Assembly: GCA_024639905.1 (NCBI GenBank)
Contig: JAHEGE010000006.1
Location: forward strand, 62,001-126,000
Source: Gammaproteobacteria bacterium
GTDB lineage: Bacteria > Pseudomonadota > Gammaproteobacteria > Pseudomonadales > Pseudohongiellaceae
Length of the DNA stretch: 64,000 bases
Direction of reading: 5' to 3'
In this document: positions 1 to 58,748 of the stretch, one piece after another
Numbering within the stretch: position 1 is the stretch's first letter
Layout: every line of letters starts with the position of its first letter
The notes under the pieces: generated by a model
The model's database searches: none
The model's input: the letters and a program-made list of their open reading frames with translations, nothing else
Told to the model about the DNA's origin: nothing
Translations under genes and position numbers: made by a program

Positions 1-700
1 GAAACAATCCGTTAATCTTGCCCACTGTGATGCGGGTTGGCGGGCGCATCATGCGGCGCATGAGATCGTCCGCCTCGATGTAAGATTCTCGGCTCGCCTT
101 GGGTATGCCGTCATCGACAACCTTGGTGCGGAGCACTAAGGGCTCGCCAACACGCACTGTGCGAATATCATCTCCCTGAACCTCTACTGCAGGCTTTACA
201 TTCGCTCGGGATTCGGGGCTGCTGGTGCCCGCGCCGAGTGAGCCTGTTTCAGAGGCGATAACAATGTTGTCGACCTGATAGTCGGGCTTAAGCGTGGCAT
301 AGGCCTTACGCTCGACACCATTGACCTTCAAGGTCCAAACCAGCTCACGGTCACCCCAGTCTGCCGGTACGTTAACCTCGAAGTTGAAGCGATTGCGCCG
401 GGGGAGGAAATGCGTTGGTTGCCCCCTATCGGCCTCACCGGGGGAGAAGAAGTTGTCGTCACCGACTGCAACGTCAGGCTCTTCCAGCCAGTTCTCGTTC
501 ATATAGCCGAACATGAAACTGAACGTACCATCAGGATTCGGTCGCCAGCCTTCATAAGCAGGCTCGATATGCTGGCCTTTCTGGTAGCTAGTTTGCGCTG
601 AGGCAGGAGAGGAGAGGGTGGTCAATAAAGGGGTAAAGCTGAGTGCAAGAGCGAGCAGGGCCGAGGCCCTGCTTGTCATGCTACGTGAGTTAACAGCCAT
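1..700 (-). CDS. Secreted protein of unknown function (C-terminus beyond window)
   Basis: The frame is open from an ATG at 700 to the left edge of the window, giving 233 codons without a stop. The N-terminus looks like a Sec signal peptide: a short basic start, a leucine/alanine-rich core, then a likely cleavage after ASAQ near residue 38. The mature part contains GWRPNPDGTFSFMFGYMN and NENWLEEPDVAVG, rich in aromatic residues and proline, without cysteine pairs or a catalytic motif that I recognise. It starts 32 bp after the stop of the cytochrome/copper fusion gene on the same strand, so the two are probably co-transcribed. A GAGGAA stretch lies about 11 nt upstream of the ATG. Function unknown. 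Confidence 0.75.
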   Translation of the reverse strand, partial: MAVNSRSMTSRASALLALALSFTPLLTTLSSPASAQTSYQKGQHIEPAYEGWRPNPDGTFSFMFGYMNENWLEEPDVAVGDDNFFSPGEADRGQPTHFLPRRNRFNFEVNVPADWGDRELVWTLKVNGVERKAYATLKPDYQVDNIVIASETGSLGAGTSSPESRANVKPAVEVQGDDIRTVRVGEPLVLRTKVVDDGIPKASRESYIEADDLMRRMMRPPTRITVGKINGLF

Positions 701-51438: not shown

Positions 51439-52071
51439 CTATGAGGTCTTCTGTTTAAACTCGCAGAGGTCCTCAATGACACAGGCGCCGCAACGAGGTT
51501 TTCGCGCGACACAAATATAGCGGCCTTGTAATATCAGCCAATGATGGGCGTCTAACAAAAACTCCTCCGGCACGAGCTTGAGGAGTTTTTTTTCGACTGC
51601 GAGAACCGTCTCCCCAGGCGCAATGCCGGTGCGGTTTGATACGCGATAAATATGCGTGTCGACGGCCATCGCGACCTGACGAAAGGCGGTGTTGAGAACC
51701 ACGTTCGCGGTCTTTCGGCCGACGCCGGGCAGCGCCTCGAGTGCTTCACGCGAGTCAGGCACCTCGCCCCCGTGTTCGTCAACAAGCAGCGCGCAGGTCT
51801 TGATGACATTCTCTGCCTTCGTGTTAAACAAGCCTATAGTCTTGATGTATTCCTTGAGACCCGCCACGCCAAGTGCGTGGATAGCCTGCGGTGTGTTGGC
51901 GACCGGGTAGAGCTTGTCGGTTGCCTTGTTAACGCCAACATCGGTGGACTGGGCAGAGAGCATGACGGCGATCAACAACTCGAACGGTGACGAGTAGTTA
52001 AGCTCGGTTTTCGGTTCTGGGTTTTCAGCGCGCAGCCGGCTGAAGATTTCAGTGCGTTTCGCCTTGTTCAT
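51439..52071 (-). CDS. nth: Endonuclease III
   Basis: DNA glycosylase/AP lyase for oxidised pyrimidines. The helix-hairpin-helix LPGVGRKTANVV carries catalytic Lys120, Asp138 is in AVDTH, and the 4Fe-4S cysteines are in CVARKPRCGACVIEDLC. The 210-residue length is standard. It is the last gene of the Rnf-remnant cluster, 5 bp after the RnfD-like stop, the same gene order as metG-rnf-nth in related bacteria. Confidence 0.96.
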   Translation of the reverse strand: MNKAKRTEIFSRLRAENPEPKTELNYSSPFELLIAVMLSAQSTDVGVNKATDKLYPVANTPQAIHALGVAGLKEYIKTIGLFNTKAENVIKTCALLVDEHGGEVPDSREALEALPGVGRKTANVVLNTAFRQVAMAVDTHIYRVSNRTGIAPGETVLAVEKKLLKLVPEEFLLDAHHWLILQGRYICVARKPRCGACVIEDLCEFKQKTS

Positions 52072-52076
52072 GCCAA

Positions 52077-53066
52077 TTACTCTTTTTCAGGGGTTCGATG
52101 CAAGGCGCCAGTGACTCGTGCGCGCAGGACAACCTCACCACGCGCAGCAAGGGCTTCATGTTGTGCCTGCAATCTGTCTCGGCTATGTCGCCATTGTCTA
52201 GGTTTAATGAGGCGTGTGTAGAGCGCAGCGATGACGGAGCTCAGCGAGAGTCCGGCGAGTAACAGGAGAACAGGAAGGGTTAGCGTCAGAGGCGTAAGGC
52301 CGTGTGCCGCGATCCCTATTGTCGCGATCGCCGCAAGCAGTGTACTGGCAGTGGTGCCAAAAACTAGCAGACGCGCCCTTGTCACCAGTAAGATCATCGG
52401 CCGTGCAAGACCGCCGACAAGAGTGGCGATACAAAGCGCGAATAGCGGCGAATACACTGCGCACAGCAGCGTGTAGCTCAAACCTCCTACGGCTCCCAGA
52501 AGCCACGTGCCACGTGGATGCGCAGGCGTAGTTTGCAGCGTGGCGAAAAGATGAGGCATTAATGCTAGAGCGACGCCGTGCAGTATCACTGCATTGGGCT
52601 CGGGGCTTTTTGTGAGTAATTGGTACGCTAAACTTGTGAAAAGGAATCCGAGGGTAGCCCGCCAGCGCAGGAGTCCGCGCCAATGTAGCCATGCGGCGGT
52701 GACACCGAGCGCGCCGATAGCGAGGGCTTCGTAAATGAGTCCTGGCGACGTGGTCGATCCAAGCGTGGCAAGAGCCGGGGCATCAAGACGATGTTGCTTA
52801 AACAGAACAAGGAGTAGCCCACCTAACAAGGCGTGGAGACTCAGTGAACCGGCGCCGAGACCTATGAGTCTCGGGAAAAAATGAAGCGCTATAGAAACGC
52901 AGATAGCGCCGTTTATAAGAAGCGCAGCAGAGCCAAGAGTAGGGCTGGTAATGCCGTTCAGGCGCGCGACATCCGCGATACATAACCCTATGAGTAAACA
53001 CGCCATGGCTTGCAGATTGAAAAGCGTGGTGTCGGATCCGCTGTGTAATCGGTTCATGGGGCTCAT
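52077..53066 (-). CDS. RnfD-like membrane protein, flavinylation motif not found
   Basis: A 329-residue protein with about nine or ten transmembrane helices. The second half parallels RnfD/RsxD: GLIYEALAIGALGVTAAWLHWRGLLRWRATLGFL, then GVALALMPHLFATLQ, RGTWLLGAVGGLSYTL and SPLFALCIATLVGGLARPMI. In RnfD a threonine in an (S/T)GAT motif carries covalent FMN shortly before this block. Here the corresponding stretch reads DAPALATLGSTTSPG and no GAT motif occurs anywhere. ATG overlaps the upstream stop (ATGA). It has a basic cytoplasmic C-terminal tail of about 45 residues. Confidence 0.72.
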   Translation of the reverse strand: MSPMNRLHSGSDTTLFNLQAMACLLIGLCIADVARLNGITSPTLGSAALLINGAICVSIALHFFPRLIGLGAGSLSLHALLGGLLLVLFKQHRLDAPALATLGSTTSPGLIYEALAIGALGVTAAWLHWRGLLRWRATLGFLFTSLAYQLLTKSPEPNAVILHGVALALMPHLFATLQTTPAHPRGTWLLGAVGGLSYTLLCAVYSPLFALCIATLVGGLARPMILLVTRARLLVFGTTASTLLAAIATIGIAAHGLTPLTLTLPVLLLLAGLSLSSVIAALYTRLIKPRQWRHSRDRLQAQHEALAARGEVVLRARVTGALHRTPEKE

Positions 53067-53620
53067 TTTGACTGCGTGTCCTCGCGCGCGAGCTGCGCAG
53101 ATTTTGCTGCACGTTTCGCCTTCACGCGTGCGACCGCCGCGGCTATGTCTGCCTGAGCCTTATCCCTCGTGGCTGGCAGTGCGGGCGAGACAGGTGTAGA
53201 ACTCGCCGCTTGCGGCACCAACGCCCCCTGTGGTTTTTGTATCGCCGGTTTGATCGCTCGCTTATTACGTTGTTTCGCCTCCACGCGGCGTTGGCGTTTT
53301 TCGAAGCGCGTCTTCCAGTGTGCGCTAGCGGCACGCTCTCTCGTCTCAGCGTTCGCCAAGGCTTTGCCGTGTTCTAGCAAGTCGGCGAGGGGTAAATGAC
53401 TGGGGCAGGCCGCTGTGCACTTGCCGCAATCCGTGCAGTGCATGAGCCCTTTTTCGTTAAGGTCGTCCAGTCGCTCTGCGTGTGTGGTGCCGGTTGTGCT
53501 CGGCGTGCGGCATAGTGCGATAAGCGCAATGAGTGTGCTTGTCGCGAGCCCTTCAGGGCAGGCGTCATCGCATAGCTGGCAGCTGGTGCACGGCATTGGC
53601 TTCTGGGTCGAGAGGTTCAC
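53063..53620 (-). CDS. RnfC-like ferredoxin domain protein lacking the NADH/FMN part
   Basis: A 185-residue protein corresponding only to the C-terminal section of RnfC/RsxC. Two 4Fe-4S sites are visible: Cys11, 14, 17, 21 ([12 protein letters not shown]) and Cys62, 65, 68, 72 ([12 protein letters not shown]). They are followed by [15 protein letters not shown], a basic coiled-coil ([16 protein letters not shown]) and the Ala/Lys tail [19 protein letters not shown] typical of RnfC. The roughly 370-residue NuoF-like/SLBB portion is absent. Start is GTG 53620, overlapping the RnfB stop (GTGA). Confidence 0.78.
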
Positions 53621-54084
53621 GGCCTGCCTCCCGCCTGTCGCAATCGATTAGTGTCCGCGTCTTCACGTGGTATGAGGTCTATACAATCAACCGGGCAAGG
53701 CTCTACGCACAGATCGCAACCGTTGCACTCGCTTTCAATAACGCTGTGCATCCGTTTCGCTGCGCCGTAGATCGCGTCTGTCGGGCAGGCCTGAAGACAT
53801 TTGGTGCAACCGATACATTCGTCTTCGCGAATCCGTGCCACCGAAGACAGGAGAGGGCGCATGTGAGCGGGATCGAGCGGCTTGGGTGTGTCGTTTACCA
53901 AGCGTGCGAGCCGTCGTGCGGTTATCTCGCCGCCAGGCGGGCAGAGATTCGTTGCCGCGCCATTAAGGATTGCTTCGGCATAGGGTCTGCAGCCGAGGTG
54001 GCCACACTGGCCGCACTGGGTTTGTGGCAGGATGTCATTGATGGCTTCAATTAGCGTGTCAGATGCGGCGACGGAGAAAAACAT
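53617..54084 (-). CDS. rnfB: RnfB-like iron-sulfur protein without membrane anchor
   Basis: Strong resemblance to RnfB/RsxB: the 4Fe-4S domain [19 protein letters not shown] (Cys24, 27, 32, 48) then two ferredoxin clusters (Cys90, 93, 96, 100 and Cys120, 123, 126, 130; [15 protein letters not shown]). RnfB normally begins with a transmembrane helix of about 25 residues; here the protein starts [20 protein letters not shown] and should be soluble. Start is 3 nt after the RnfA-like stop. Confidence 0.85.
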
Positions 54085-54087
54085 GGC

Positions 54088-54684
54088 TTAGAGGATCCCC
54101 GCGAACGCAGAGAAGCAGAGTGTCATGACTGCAAGATACAGAAAGGCGCGCGAGAGGTCGTAATCGTGGCTGCTGCCTTCGGGCAATGCCGCAGCCGCTG
54201 AGCTAAGCCGAGCGCTCTCGCGCAGAGCTGAGAGGAGCACGCTCGTGCCGATAAATCCGATGCCGGCAGCTAGTGCCAACAAAGCAACGAAACTGGAATG
54301 TGCTGTGTAGGCTGTCGCGGAGCCAAACTCGGTGATCAGTACGGCGCCAGCTGTCGCCGTAAAAAAACTGCCCCAGCGTTCGTTTCTCAATTGCCGCGTG
54401 AGCAGTTTTTGGCGGGAGAGGAGGGCGCTTACTAAGAGAACAGAGGCGCCTGCTGAGAGACCCGCGATAGCCCATTGGGTAGCCCAGTAAGAAGCCCAGT
54501 GAGTTGCGCTGATAGCAGTCGCAGGTATCGACGACGGCGCCCGGGTGCCGAATAGAACGGCGCAGGTGGTTATCGCTGTACTAGCTGCGTAGTAGCTGCT
54601 TAAGCGCAAGGCGAGGCGAGGCGAGGCGCTGACGCGCAGCGTCGCCCAAACAAGGACGCTGCCAAGGCAGGCGAAAATGATCAC
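54088..54684 (-). CDS. Divergent RnfA-like six-helix membrane protein
   Basis: A 198-residue protein with about six transmembrane helices, the size of RnfA (about 193). The C-terminus, GIGFIGTSVLLSALRESARLSSAAAALP...LSRAFLYLAVMTLCFSAFAGIL, lines up with the RnfA end (GF, RER, then a final helix with LAF/FAG). The internal half-helix cysteines that hold the membrane 2Fe-2S cluster in RnfA/RnfE are not visible (only one Cys near residue 5, one at about 41 and one near 191). Start is GTG 54684 overlapping the protease stop. Confidence 0.6.
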   Translation of the reverse strand: MIIFACLGSVLVWATLRVSASPRLALRLSSYYAASTAITTCAVLFGTRAPSSIPATAISATHWASYWATQWAIAGLSAGASVLLVSALLSRQKLLTRQLRNERWGSFFTATAGAVLITEFGSATAYTAHSSFVALLALAAGIGFIGTSVLLSALRESARLSSAAAALPEGSSHDYDLSRAFLYLAVMTLCFSAFAGIL

Positions 54685-56240
54685 GGTGCGGCTGCTGCGT
54701 CTGCCTGTGCGGTTGAGCTTGCACTGGGCACTTGATAGCGGGCAAGGATAGAGGCCTCGCTGGCGAGCGCGTCGGCATGATTAATCACCATTTGATAGCC
54801 ATTCTTATTCTCGAAGACGACGTTGTCTTCCTCGTTATTCGCGAGTCGCTTAGAGAAATCAGCGAAGTCGCGAATCGGGTGACCATTCACCGTGTCGACT
54901 ATCCAGTTGCGCCAATCGTGATAACCGAGATTGACGTCGGCGGCGAGCACCTGCAAAGCCACGACCAGTTGGCTGCGTTCTGGTGAGCTCCATTCGCTGC
55001 GCGCCTGTAATAGACTCACCGGCGCTGACCGACTCCAGTCGTTGCCCCAGCGCTTGATCAAATTCATATTCAGCGGAACGAACAGAACGCCTCCATAAAT
55101 TACGTACTCGGGAGTCTGATCGAAGCGCTCGCCGGTGACTAGACTGTAGCTGTCCAGAGATTGTCGTGCCTCGAGTTCTGCCGTGACTGTCTTTCCTGCG
55201 CGAACCAGGGAGAGCGCTACGGGCTCGCCAGCATGGTGCAGGTCGATCGCGTGTTTATAGTCGGTTTGGAGATCATCCGAGAGCTTGATGCTGCCATCCT
55301 CGGCGATGTCATAGTCATCGATGCGCACGATGACATCGTCTTCGAAGATCTGGCCATGGGCCGGAGAGTCATCAAAGACTTTGATAACCAAGACGCCGTC
55401 TTGATCGTCACTTAATCCGTAAGCTTTCTTGGCCGCTGGGCTGTCGAGTGTCTGAGTCCGAAAGCCCAAATCGGGGAAGCCGTCATTGCGTCCGTCTTCA
55501 GCATCGGTAAGCACATGGCGCACGATGCTCGGGGGCACGAAGTAGCCGAGGTTTTCGGAGCGACCACCGCTATTCGCTTGCATAACAACGCCGATGATCT
55601 CGCGGTCGACAATGACCGGGCCGCCGCTATTACCAGGATTAATCGCCGCGTCTATCTGGCCAGCTAAGAGATAGGCGCCGGCATGAGCGTAGACCTGTTG
55701 CTCGACGCGCGATAGGACGCCCTTGGTAATACTTAATGACTTGCCACCCATGGGGTAGCCATAAACAGACACTTCTTTTTGTGGCTCGGGGAGTTCGCCG
55801 AGCGCGAGGGGCTCTAGGTCGTCAAAGAACCCGAGGTCATCGACAGTGATGAGGGCGAGGTCTGCTTCGTGTGAGACGAAAACAACTCGCGCGAGGTAGC
55901 GCTTCGGGTCGTTATGCTTCTGGGCTTGAATGTAGCTGGCGTTGGCGATGACATGCGCATTGGTGAGAATACGCTTGCCCGCGATGACTGAACCCGAGCC
56001 GCTAGATTGGCGCGGTGTAAGGAGTCGCCATGGGGTGAAATAGTCCGGTTCCGCTTGCGTCGTGTAGATCTTTATTACGGAGTCTTGTATCGCTTCCAGC
56101 TCACTCTTTACTTCATTTTCTTGCGCGTGTGCTGGGCCCGCCGCGAAGAGCGTAAATGTCGCGATGATCGCGGCTAATAACACGCTTAAAGCCCATTGGT
56201 CAGAGTGCAGGCTGATGCGCGGATGGGTGTCGCTTTGCAT
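54681..56240 (-). CDS. Exported Deg/HtrA-like serine protease with PDZ-type region
   Basis: A 519-residue protein with a signal peptide cleaved near AHAQEN (residue 40). The trypsin-type triad is complete: His96 (TNAHVI), Asp127 (HEADLALI) and Ser205 (NPGNSGGP). A PDZ-like domain follows (about 250-340: FDDSPAHGQIFEDDVIVRIDDY) and a longer C-terminal region without homology I recognise. It acts in the periplasm. Its stop overlaps the start of the RnfA-like gene by 4 nt, so it is coupled to the Rnf remnant, an unexpected partner. It lies 75 bp downstream of metG. Confidence 0.88.
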   Translation of the reverse strand: MQSDTHPRISLHSDQWALSVLLAAIIATFTLFAAGPAHAQENEVKSELEAIQDSVIKIYTTQAEPDYFTPWRLLTPRQSSGSGSVIAGKRILTNAHVIANASYIQAQKHNDPKRYLARVVFVSHEADLALITVDDLGFFDDLEPLALGELPEPQKEVSVYGYPMGGKSLSITKGVLSRVEQQVYAHAGAYLLAGQIDAAINPGNSGGPVIVDREIIGVVMQANSGGRSENLGYFVPPSIVRHVLTDAEDGRNDGFPDLGFRTQTLDSPAAKKAYGLSDDQDGVLVIKVFDDSPAHGQIFEDDVIVRIDDYDIAEDGSIKLSDDLQTDYKHAIDLHHAGEPVALSLVRAGKTVTAELEARQSLDSYSLVTGERFDQTPEYVIYGGVLFVPLNMNLIKRWGNDWSRSAPVSLLQARSEWSSPERSQLVVALQVLAADVNLGYHDWRNWIVDTVNGHPIRDFADFSKRLANNEEDNVVFENKNGYQMVINHADALASEASILARYQVPSASSTAQADAAAAP

Positions 56241-56314: not shown

Positions 56315-58384
56315 TTAAGTCACCCGCATGCCAGGCTGAGCGCCGTCATGAGGCTCAAGAAGCCATAGCTCGTCTTTGCCAGGTCCGGCGGCCAATACCA
56401 TGCCTTCGGACATGCCGAATTTCATTTTGCGCGGTGCGAGGTTGGCGACCACGACGGTGAGTTTACCGGTGAGCTGCTCGGGCGAATAGGCTGACTTAAT
56501 GCCAGAGAATACGCTACGAGTGACTTCATTGCCGGACGCGTCGTGTCCGATATCAAGGGTAAGCTTGAGCAGCTTATCGGCGCCTTCGACGTGTTCTGCC
56601 AATGCGATACGGGCAATGCGTAAATCAATTTTAGCGAAATCATCGAACTGAATTTCGGGGGCGAAAGGCGAATCCTCTGCCGTGTCCTCCTCAGCCGTTA
56701 TCGCTTCAGCCGTAACCGACTCCTGTGGCGCTGCCGCCGCATACGCGGCTTTCGTTGCGTCGATCATCGCCTCTATTTTTTTAGCTTCCACGCGAGTCAT
56801 GAGCGGTTCGAATTTTCCGATCGTGTGTCCCAGTAGCGCAGTCTGTGAATCGGCCCAGCTTAGCGGAGCAACAGCGAGGAAGCGTTCGGCGTTCGCCGCC
56901 ATAACGGGCAAAACAGGCTTTAGGTAGCACAGCAGTATGCGGAACGCGTTAATGCCGGTGCTGCAGATTCGCTGCAGATTTTCTGAACCCGGTTCGGCTT
57001 TGGCGACGACCCACGGCTGACGGTCATTTATGTATTGGTTAGCCGCATCGGCTAGAGTCATGATTAGGCGTATGGCCTTCGAGTATTCACGTTTTTCGAA
57101 ATGTGTCGCAATCTCTTCGCTTGCGGCCTGAAGGTTTTCGATCAAGGCTACATCGTCGAGAGTGTCTGCCAGTTTGCCAGCGTAGCCTTTGCTGATGAAT
57201 CCCGCGCAGCGGCTGGCGATATTCACGACCTTGCCCACTAGGTCTGAGTTTACCCGAGCGGCGAAGTCTTCGAGATTTAGGTCAAGGTCGTCGACTCCGC
57301 TGGAGAGCTTCGCAGCGAGATAGTAGCGCAGGTATTCAGGGTCCAAATGCTCGAGGTAGGTGCGTGCGTTAATAAACGTGCCACGCGACTTCGACATTTT
57401 CGTGCCGTCGACCGTCAGAAAGCCGTGCACATATACGGCGCTGGGTGTGCGGTAGTTAGCACTGGTAAGCATCGCAGGCCAAAACAGGGTGTGAAAATTG
57501 ACGATGTCTTTGCCGATGAAATGGTACAGCTCGGCGTTTGAGTCTTTGCTCCAGTAATCGTCGAAGTTGTAATCGCTGCGTGTGCACAAGTTCTCGAAGC
57601 TTGCCATGTAGCCGATCGGGGCATCGAGCCAGACGTAGAAGAACTTGCCCGGTGCGCCGGGTATTTCAAAGCCGAAATAGGGCGCGTCGCGGCTGATATC
57701 CCACTGCTGCAGCTCATCATCCAACCACTCTGCTAGCTTGTTCGCGACGGCATCTTGAAGCGTGCCACTGCGCGTCCATTGCCTAAGCATGTCCTTGAAT
57801 TGCGGTAGATCGAAGAAGAAATGCTCGGAGTCTTTCTCGATTGGTGTGGCGCCAGAGATGGTCGACGTCGGATCGATGAGCTCGGACGGGCTGTAGGTAG
57901 AACCGCAGGCCTCGCAGTTGTCTCCGTACTGCTCGGGGGCCTTGCACTTGGGGCAGCTGCCTTTAACGTAACGATCGGCAAGGAAAAGCTGTTTTTCGGG
58001 ATCGAATAGCTGAGTGATAGAGCGCCGCGCGATGTGTCCGTTGGCATCGAGCGCCTGATAAATTGATTCCGAACGCGCCTGATTCTCCGGAGAGTGTGTC
58101 GAATGGAAGTTGTCGAAGCCGACAGAGAAGCCTGCATAGTCCGCCTGGTGAGCCGCGTTCACCTTGTCGATGAGCTGCTGGGGCGTGATGCCTTGGCTCT
58201 CGGCGCTGAGCATAATGGCGGTGCCGTGGGCGTCGTCTGCGCAGACGTATACGCAGTCATGGCCGCGCATCTTCTGCAGGCGAACCCAGATGTCTGTCTG
58301 TACAGCCTCGAGCATATGTCCGAGGTGAATGTCGCCGTTGGCATAGGGGAGGGCGCTAGTGACGAGAATCTTGCGTGGGTTCAC
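56315..58384 (-). CDS. metG: Methionyl-tRNA synthetase
   Basis: Charges tRNA-Met. The HIGH motif is [12 protein letters not shown] (near residue 15), KMSKSRGTF is the KMSKS loop, and zinc cysteines are in [17 protein letters not shown]. The C-terminal tRNA-binding domain ([11 protein letters not shown]) is fused, giving 689 residues as in E. coli-type dimers. It is the first gene of the metG-protease-rnf-nth run. Confidence 0.96.
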
Positions 58385-58436: not shown

Positions 58437-58601
58437 CTAGACTTCGACCATATCGAAATCTTCCTTGCCCACGCCGCACTCGGGGCACATCCAGTCTTCA
58501 GGGATATCATCCCAGCTGGTTCCCGGCGCAATACCATCGTCTGGTAGGCCGAGCGCCTCTTCATAGACGAAACTACATACTAAACACTGCCACTTTCGCA
58601 T
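58437..58601 (-). CDS. Rubredoxin
   Basis: A 54-residue one-iron electron carrier with Cys6, Cys9 (CLVC) and Cys39, Cys42 (CPEC), and the standard [27 protein letters not shown] core. It usually donates electrons to alkane hydroxylases or oxygen-stress enzymes; no such partner is nearby. ATG 58601 has AGGAT upstream; a longer frame to 58658 is not supported. Divergent from dcd. Confidence 0.93.
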
Positions 58602-58748
58602 CGATCTTATCCTGAATTTGCTAACAACACTTTGGCCGGCAAGGATACGCGAAATCACTGAGTATTTCAGCTATGCTTGCGGGATGCCGATAGCACTGCA
58701 GCGAGGGCCAAACACACAGTTTTAGAGAGATGAGAGTAAGGTTGATAC

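Follow-up and report, generated by a model that had tools for sequence, protein, structure and literature searches.

The window examined here, a stretch of 64,000 nucleotides from a gammaproteobacterium of the family Pseudohongiellaceae (assembly GCA_024639905.1, contig JAHEGE010000006.1, positions 62,001 to 126,000), carries just upstream of nth a cluster of four genes, here called wA to wD, related to components of Rnf, commonly taken to be an ion pump powered by redox reactions. Two of the genes encode iron-sulfur (Fe-S) proteins and two encode membrane proteins. The features are listed below with the evidence for each in parentheses; FMN is flavin mononucleotide, NADH reduced nicotinamide adenine dinucleotide and HMM hidden Markov model.

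54088-54684, minus strand: wA, a divergent RnfA without cysteines at the [2Fe-2S] ligand positions (hhalign, ligand count)
53617-54084, minus strand: wB, RnfB with Fe-S domain and 2[4Fe-4S] ferredoxin domain, without the N-terminal membrane helix (TIGR01944)
53063-53620, minus strand: wC, only the C-terminal part of RnfC, with 2[4Fe-4S] domain and helical tail (NF003454)
53393-53599, minus strand: 2[4Fe-4S] domain of wC, residues about 8-76 (Pfam Fer4_10, E = 1.3e-9)
53111-53167, minus strand: RnfC tail motif in wC, residues 152-170 (near-invariant in the six-genome alignment; tail HMM, 6/6)
52077-53066, minus strand: wD, an RnfD::RnfE chimeric membrane protein without a conserved FMN-threonine motif (PF03116, hhalign)
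52374-52763, minus strand: RnfD-like part of wD, residues 102-231 (PF03116, profile 161-292 of 296; hhalign)
52080-52373, minus strand: RnfE-like C-terminal part of wD, residues 232-329 (hhalign)
52107-52124, minus strand: RARVTG motif in wD, of the kind found near the RnfE C-terminus (6/6 wD)
56315-58384, minus strand: metG
54681-56240, minus strand: HtrA/DegP-like protease gene with PDZ_3, overlapping wA by four bases, the usual neighbour across the genus
51439-52071, minus strand: nth, endonuclease III (TIGR01083, E = 3.5e-81)

The genes run metG, HtrA/DegP-like gene, wA, wB, wC, wD, nth, with argG on the opposite strand. Four-base overlaps join the protease gene to wA (GTGA), wB to wC (GTGA) and wC to wD (ATGA). 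An earlier note, made from the sequence alone, had described four intact, overlapping genes between metG and nth; this stands, except that the protease gene intervenes after metG and that wA and wB do not overlap. Its argument that the overlaps and intact cysteine motifs speak against random decay was borne out as far as broken genes are concerned, the open reading frames being unbroken and the RnfB and RnfC cysteines kept. A survey of metG-nth intervals turned up this arrangement of four genes at the equivalent position in five other genomes of the genus, hence in six together with the source, and a frameshift or assembly error was rejected on this ground. In E. coli K-12, rsxABCDGE immediately precedes nth, the same neighbourhood as that of the window cluster.

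Profile searches placed wB and wC inside the Rnf families, while wA and wD were placed there through hhalign. wB is RnfB, matching TIGR01944 above its cut-off (E = 6.1e-59), and a hydropathy scan found no hydrophobic segment in it, so that it lacks the N-terminal membrane helix, as the earlier note had claimed. By the look of the alignment, the RnfB N-terminus is also short in genome G060 of the same clade and hydrophobic in the other four. Against the RsxB family NF005415 wB scores 197.4 bits, under the curated 281, a value that only 2 of 370 genomes of the class exceed. wC matches RnfC/RsxC models only in their rear part (NF003454, E = 2.4e-16, model 363-524; TIGR01945, E = 2.7e-9, model 358-430); it begins near RnfC model position 360 and has no GGAG motif, so that the NADH/FMN domain is absent. 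This agrees with the earlier description of an RnfC cut down to its two-cluster ferredoxin domain and tail, and with the claim that NADH cannot be oxidised in the usual way, the NADH/FMN part of RnfC being gone. The alignment of wC to PDB 8ahx_C (E = 2.2e-9) runs from the Fe-S domain into part of the C-terminal end, and the tail motif lies beyond the aligned part. In all six genomes the 13 aligned RnfB cysteine positions, 12 of them taken as ligands, and all eight RnfC cysteines are kept; judged by cysteine pattern, wB and wC together would hold five [4Fe-4S] clusters.

The membrane proteins have diverged much further, and their homology rests on hhalign and, for wD, a Pfam match below cut-off. 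wA falls under the Pfam and NCBIfam cut-offs (Rnf-Nqr, E = 0.3; TIGR01943, RnfA, E = 0.014), and its placement as RnfA comes from profile-profile comparison alone: with the six-genome alignment, hhalign gave a probability of 88% for RnfA (E = 2.9e-6) against 33% for RnfE and 0.1% for NuoM/NuoN, and 0 of 60 column shuffles equalled the real value. PDB profile searches with six-row alignments returned only RnfA for wA (E = 1.8 and 2.2) and nothing for wD at E ≤ 5. The earlier note had called wA an RnfA-like six-helix protein. The homology holds by hhalign; six helices were seen in an AlphaFold2 model of low confidence, and a hydropathy scan found 4 segments versus six for E. coli RsxA. The AlphaFold2 models, built on two-row alignments (window plus locus L141), were poor, with predicted local distance difference test scores of 45.6 and 51.8.

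wD matches PF03116 at E = 1.3e-4, under the curated cut-off and over profile positions 161-292, and has no NCBIfam match. With the six-genome alignment, hhalign assigned whole wD to RnfE over its C-terminal part (85%, E = 6.5e-6) and, further upstream, to RnfD (18.6%, E = 1.3e-3). When wD was cut at residue 232, the N-terminal part went to RnfD (22.7%, E = 9.2e-4; RnfE 0.3%) and the C-terminal part to RnfE (91.8%, E = 7.4e-7, RnfE 171-278; RnfD 0.2%), and for each pairing 0 of 60 column shuffles were as good. A first shuffle round had given one anomalous E value each in two of four tests (2.5e-19 and 6e-21); none recurred on repeat with 60 shuffles each. A short motif, R-A/V/M-R-V/M/L-T-G/N, occurs in 6/6 wD and in 31/36 RnfE of the rnfABCDE form without rnfG, the commonest form in the genus (ABCDE below), and in 0/37 RnfD of that form; it lies in the last 40 residues of 38/68 control RnfE. 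Its codons in wD (RARVTG) differ synonymously, which points to conservation at the protein level, and a DNA signal for nth was rejected on the same ground. The best-matching stretch of wD, when rechecked, is C-terminal both in the window (304-324, 10.1 bits) and in G060 (372-389). From these comparisons we conclude that wD is a fusion in which the C-terminal half of RnfD is followed by the C-terminal end of its RnfE partner. Of the two, the RnfE half is the firmer, since the hhalign probability for the RnfD half is low (18.6-22.7%). The description of wD as RnfD-like thus holds for one half and fails for the C-terminal end, which hhalign gives to RnfE. RnfE itself is not wholly missing, as had been claimed, because its C-terminal end survives fused in wD, although the [2Fe-2S]-bearing half is indeed absent.

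The accessible part of a 2025 review (PMC12174285) describes the electron path of Rnf as follows: the [2Fe-2S] cluster of RnfA/E takes electrons from RnfB, RnfG carries them on the periplasmic side, and RnfD FMN and riboflavin pass them back to RnfC. We counted the ligands of this path in the window form, in ABCDE loci and in controls comprising 57-76 sequences per subunit from loci chosen by RnfB similarity. RnfA Cys26/Cys114 (E. coli RsxA numbering) are present in 66/66 controls, in 0/38 ABCDE RnfA (one of which, L071, belongs to another genus of the family) and in 0/6 of the window form. RnfE Cys26/Cys109 are present in 68/68 controls and 0/36 ABCDE RnfE, and the RnfE half that bears them is absent from wD. 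RnfD Thr187 is found in 71/71 controls and 37/37 ABCDE RnfD and in none of the six window-form proteins, all of which have Leu at this column. The flavinylation motif, given as [S/T]GA[S/T] in the accessible part of Meheust et al. (PMC8238504), includes a Ser/Thr three residues before the Thr, and this residue is lost in 33/37 ABCDE RnfD. The ABCDE operons otherwise keep their cytoplasmic parts: RnfC GGAG in 34/37 (none in the window form), the eight RnfC cysteines in 37/37 and the 13 RnfB cysteine positions in 38 or 39 of 39. In G090, a genome of the family, RnfG is present while both RnfA cysteines and one of the two RnfE cysteines are lost, which suggests that ligand cysteines can be the first to go.

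With the ligands of RnfA/E, RnfD and RnfG missing, the known Rnf electron path cannot operate as known. This bears directly on the earlier note's proposal that a simpler wA/wD module still carries electrons over the membrane, possibly on behalf of SoxR or Nth. The membrane proteins have been retained beside nth, and the sequence DAPALAT at wD residues 95-101, loosely FMN-site-like, could be a leftover flavin site. Yet that sequence is absent from the other five genomes, the RnfA/RnfE cluster cysteines and a conserved FMN motif are missing, and the known redox ligands are thus absent or not conserved in the six window-form genomes. The link to nth has adjacency as its sole basis, an adjacency that E. 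coli shares. As for SoxR, the best match to its profile in the source genome scores 63.1 bits where the cut-off is 116.9 and does not have what we take to be the SoxR cysteine cluster, and RseC was not found there at E ≤ 0.1; a SoxR-reducing function was rejected accordingly. Passage through a simpler module hence seems highly improbable to us. The sole listed SoxR-profile match at E ≤ 0.01, at L221 354-1884, is a MerR-type regulator beside a permease-like protein of 353 amino acids.

The source genome (2.67 Mb, 26 contigs, rated 100% complete) was searched for a second system. Profile searches for RnfA/E, RnfB, RnfC and FMN_bind found no second rnf in it: RnfB has a single match and no RnfC lies above cut-off. 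Of the two operon types that the earlier note had suggested looking for, only the nqr type was found. Two proteins of the Rnf-Nqr family, adjacent on contig 11 and read as NqrD and NqrE, have Cys at the cluster positions, and proteins read as NqrB and NqrC keep SGAT motifs. FMN_bind matches in the genome comprise only the NqrC-like protein and a 684-residue frame, and the locus has no RnfG, in keeping with the claim that RnfG and the NADH/FMN module are missing; RnfH is present in the genome. These genes invite the idea that RnfB and the RnfC Fe-S domain dock on Na+-NQR and feed NqrD/NqrE, with wA and wD as adaptors: the operon is there with its ligands in place, and the RNF and NQR cores are structurally alike, RnfB and NqrF both injecting electrons, according to the accessible part of the review (PMC12174285). 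The sequences show no sign of an interface, however, and the shortened RnfB of relatives described below lacks the small cluster domain that would inject, so that we consider docking on NQR very unlikely. Directly upstream of metG in the window lies a rubredoxin-like open reading frame (58437-58658), judged from its CxxC motifs.

A search with wD found the window form in 6/84 genomes of the genus, including the source, all in one clade with support 100; as wD diverges fast, members may have been missed. Among 146 relatives the same search gave one weak match outside the genus (E = 0.007), and a contig search with wC as query returned no relative. The metG-nth stretch was covered in 74/84 genus genomes, plus some genomes of the family and order. 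A FastTree tree of MetG, HtrA, Nth and ArgG has 78 rows (73 genus, 5 family) and omits L073 and L121, with one marker each, and loci L075-L077 and L130-L140. Its rows divide into 40 ABCDE without G, 10 mini-RnfB, 10 with no cluster or a remnant, 7 solo RnfB, 6 window form, 3 RnfB::RnfC fusions, 1 ABCDGE and 1 degenerate. The labels are coarse: L230 (G007) is filed as none or remnant even though its RnfA is whole and a fragment of RnfB is present, and contig ends truncate several ABCDE loci. Mini-RnfB forms one clade (support 100), whereas solo RnfB needs four label changes (gains or losses) and the fusions two. Among the rows with no cluster or a remnant, four have RnfA N-terminal fragments and up to three have RnfE fragments; cluster loss with leftover RnfA or RnfE fragments is seen at L091, L092, L093 and L096. 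This pattern fits a passage from full Rnf to an Rnf that lost its transmembrane wire and kept the NADH domain, and from there to several shorter end states.

Individual loci illustrate the forms. The mini-RnfB proteins (L086 8664-9080 and nine further loci), of 137-148 residues, consist of the RnfB 2[4Fe-4S] domain and an RnfC tail, lie directly before nth and keep the nine cysteines of the ferredoxin part in 10/10. RnfB is fused to the RnfC iron-sulfur domain at L064, L070, L125 and L139; at L064 and L070, RnfA, D, G and E are present with the RnfA cysteines intact and without an NADH domain, and at L070 4.7 kb of other DNA separates the fusion gene from rnfD. In G081 (L097 4889-9275) RnfA, RnfC and RnfD were found and no RnfB open reading frame, and the RnfC GGAG is lost; this operon looks caught in decay.

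RnfG is missing from the ABCDE operons, but many genus genomes have an RnfG-profile match elsewhere. Of three such loci with their genes listed, two directly follow a gene interpreted as nuoN and the third belongs to a second rnf, so that ABCDE complexes may use RnfG in trans. The nuoN-linked cases (L079 7332-7988 and L080 6215-6910) are RnfG-like FMN-binding proteins with VGASVT in genomes whose rnf lacks rnfG, and would represent either RnfG that works in trans or else a flavoprotein that complex I has recruited. A second rnf, in G040 (L083 5371-9667), has the order C-D-G-E-A, with the RnfA cysteines of LGICPF and TTNC intact; at the metG-nth place of that genome (L094) only an RnfE piece stands, at a contig end. 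In the single-contig genome G025 the best RnfG-profile match (E = 3.0e-10) lies in a frame of 433 residues.

We then compared the C-terminal ends of RnfB and RnfC by an HMM of the C-terminal 70 residues of 35 RnfC proteins of the ABCDE type. It matched 6/6 wC, 7/7 solo RnfB, 10/10 mini-RnfB and 1/3 fusions, and none of 39 ABCDE RnfB, which have a full RnfC alongside, 236 flanking proteins or 67 shuffled RnfB C-termini. Besides the other two fusions it missed the RnfC of L074 and L097. The best-matching stretch in wC, when rechecked, was C-terminal both in G060 (152-213) and in the window (105-181). A regular expression for the tail gave 6/6 wC, 4/7 solo, 9/10 mini, 2/3 fusions and 29/37 ABCDE RnfC, with 0/57 RnfB and 51/76 RnfC among controls; for the mini form it has no valid shuffle control. 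By HMM and expression alike the fusion at L139 has no tail; L137 has one by the expression. In 30 class-wide loci, the best for PRK06991 (NF005415), a model that includes the tail and so favours tailed forms, the expression was found in 11/13 RnfB that had no Rnf neighbour up to 1.5 kb away (two solo RnfB lacking it) and in 0/13 that had one, no RnfB open reading frame being found in the remaining 4/30. Judged by the tail HMM, RnfB in this family is the bearer of an RnfC tail where RnfC itself has been lost (17/17 solo and mini forms).

Selection acts unevenly on the four genes. In the close trio G024/G042/G078, the ratio of non-synonymous to synonymous substitution rates (dN/dS) is 0.34-0.41 for wA, 0.29-0.37 for wD, 0.22-0.31 for wC and 0.16-0.25 for wB, and 0.03-0.09 for Nth, MetG and HtrA. 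All four frames are open in 6/6 genomes, with synonymous sites saturated between the more distant ones. In 500 runs of a neutral simulation without insertions or deletions, at a distance of 0.28, A stayed open 10 times, B and C 9 times each and D never; at a distance of 1.0 no gene stayed open. The four genes are kept, wA and wD under weak constraint.

These data bear on our main rival, and a serious one: that the cluster is a relic in slow decay, a dead pump under weak selection in which only RnfB still works, heading to solo RnfB or full loss. The dN/dS values of wA and wD, roughly 3-12 times those of the flanking genes, would suit it, as would the 10/78 tree rows with none or a remnant, some with RnfA or RnfE fragments, and the solo and mini RnfB, which show that loss of the membrane proteins is possible. 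Set against this are the four frames open in 6/6 despite saturated synonymous sites, the RARVTG motif present in 6/6 wD, and the wC tail motif and eight cysteines that have been kept. On balance we hold decay to be rather unlikely.

We favour instead, with a probability of about 0.56, a cytoplasmic ferredoxin module, anchored to the membrane, which neither pumps ions nor conducts electrons across it. An ancestral rnfABCDGE-type operon would have lost its transmembrane electron wire, leaving the four genes as a remnant. wB and wC would pair as a two-protein ferredoxin in the cytoplasm, with the RnfC tail holding it together and docking it, by analogy with Azotobacter, where the long RnfC C-terminal helix contacts RnfB and RnfH, with a function stated as not understood in the accessible part of the review (PMC12174285). 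wA and wD would tether this pair to the membrane, the RnfE-type C-terminal motif of wD being a candidate docking site. Electrons would enter from a soluble candidate donor, a ferredoxin or ferredoxin reductase, rather than from NADH via RnfC, and would leave to a cytoplasmic acceptor with no membrane passage and no ion pumping. Several observations weigh against such a module: wA and wD evolve fast, being only 25-48% identical beyond the close trio, and may thus play a minor part; sister lineages have lost the whole cluster; the DAPALAT sequence in the window's wD loosely resembles the FMN site of RnfD, though the other five genomes lack it; and the solo RnfB of L134, L136 and L138, from other families of the order, carry long extensions and no tail by either test.

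More broadly, it is possible, though to us not probable, that in Gammaproteobacteria RnfB with the RnfC tail is an electron-delivery unit of its own, independent of the pump. The genus Rnf would have become a membrane-bound NADH-to-RnfB reductase on losing the membrane cluster and RnfG, and would then have been stripped, in several lineages, to RnfB/RnfC-FeS as in the window, to RnfB with the tail or to a ferredoxin of 137-148 residues with the tail; the three untailed solo RnfB weigh against the generality of such a unit. The Rnf-type operons of most genus members examined lack the known ligands of the transmembrane cluster but retain the NADH, FMN and Fe-S parts of RnfC and RnfB. Some relatives have been reduced further, and what persists longest points to RnfB together with the tail of RnfC. 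A role of RnfB apart from pumping thus becomes testable, and bears on a question raised in the accessible part of the review, why E. coli reduces SoxR via Rsx though NADH would suffice (PMC12174285). Our literature search, with subscription papers mostly outside it, found no title or abstract opening in which an Rnf lacking RnfG and the membrane cysteines, or the transfer of an RnfC tail to RnfB, is described.

Among known systems, Na+-NQR has membrane subunits homologous to RnfA, D and E; it is encoded by a separate operon of the same genome, and the window cluster has no NqrF-like gene. The NQR/RNF-like systems of Meheust et al. 2021 are likewise partial Rnf/Nqr sets. As far as the accessible part of that paper describes them (PMC8238504), they have an NqrB/RnfD-type membrane domain and an NAD-binding domain, neither of which is in the window set, and their electrons are thought to reach an extracytosolic flavoprotein. 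With the RnfB/RsxB families NF005415 (PRK06991) and NF006446 (PRK08764) the cluster shares the RnfB core, and differs from them in having the RnfC Fe-S domain as its own gene and two membrane proteins. Compared with Rnf/Rsx proper (Azotobacter Rnf1, PDB 8ahx; E. coli RsxABCDGE), it has no RnfG and no RnfC NADH/FMN domain, its RnfD and RnfE are fused, and its membrane part has neither the [2Fe-2S] cysteines nor a conserved FMN-threonine; RnfA, RnfB, the RnfC Fe-S domain with its tail and the RnfD/RnfE parts are nevertheless homologous, and the cluster stands before nth as it does in E. coli.

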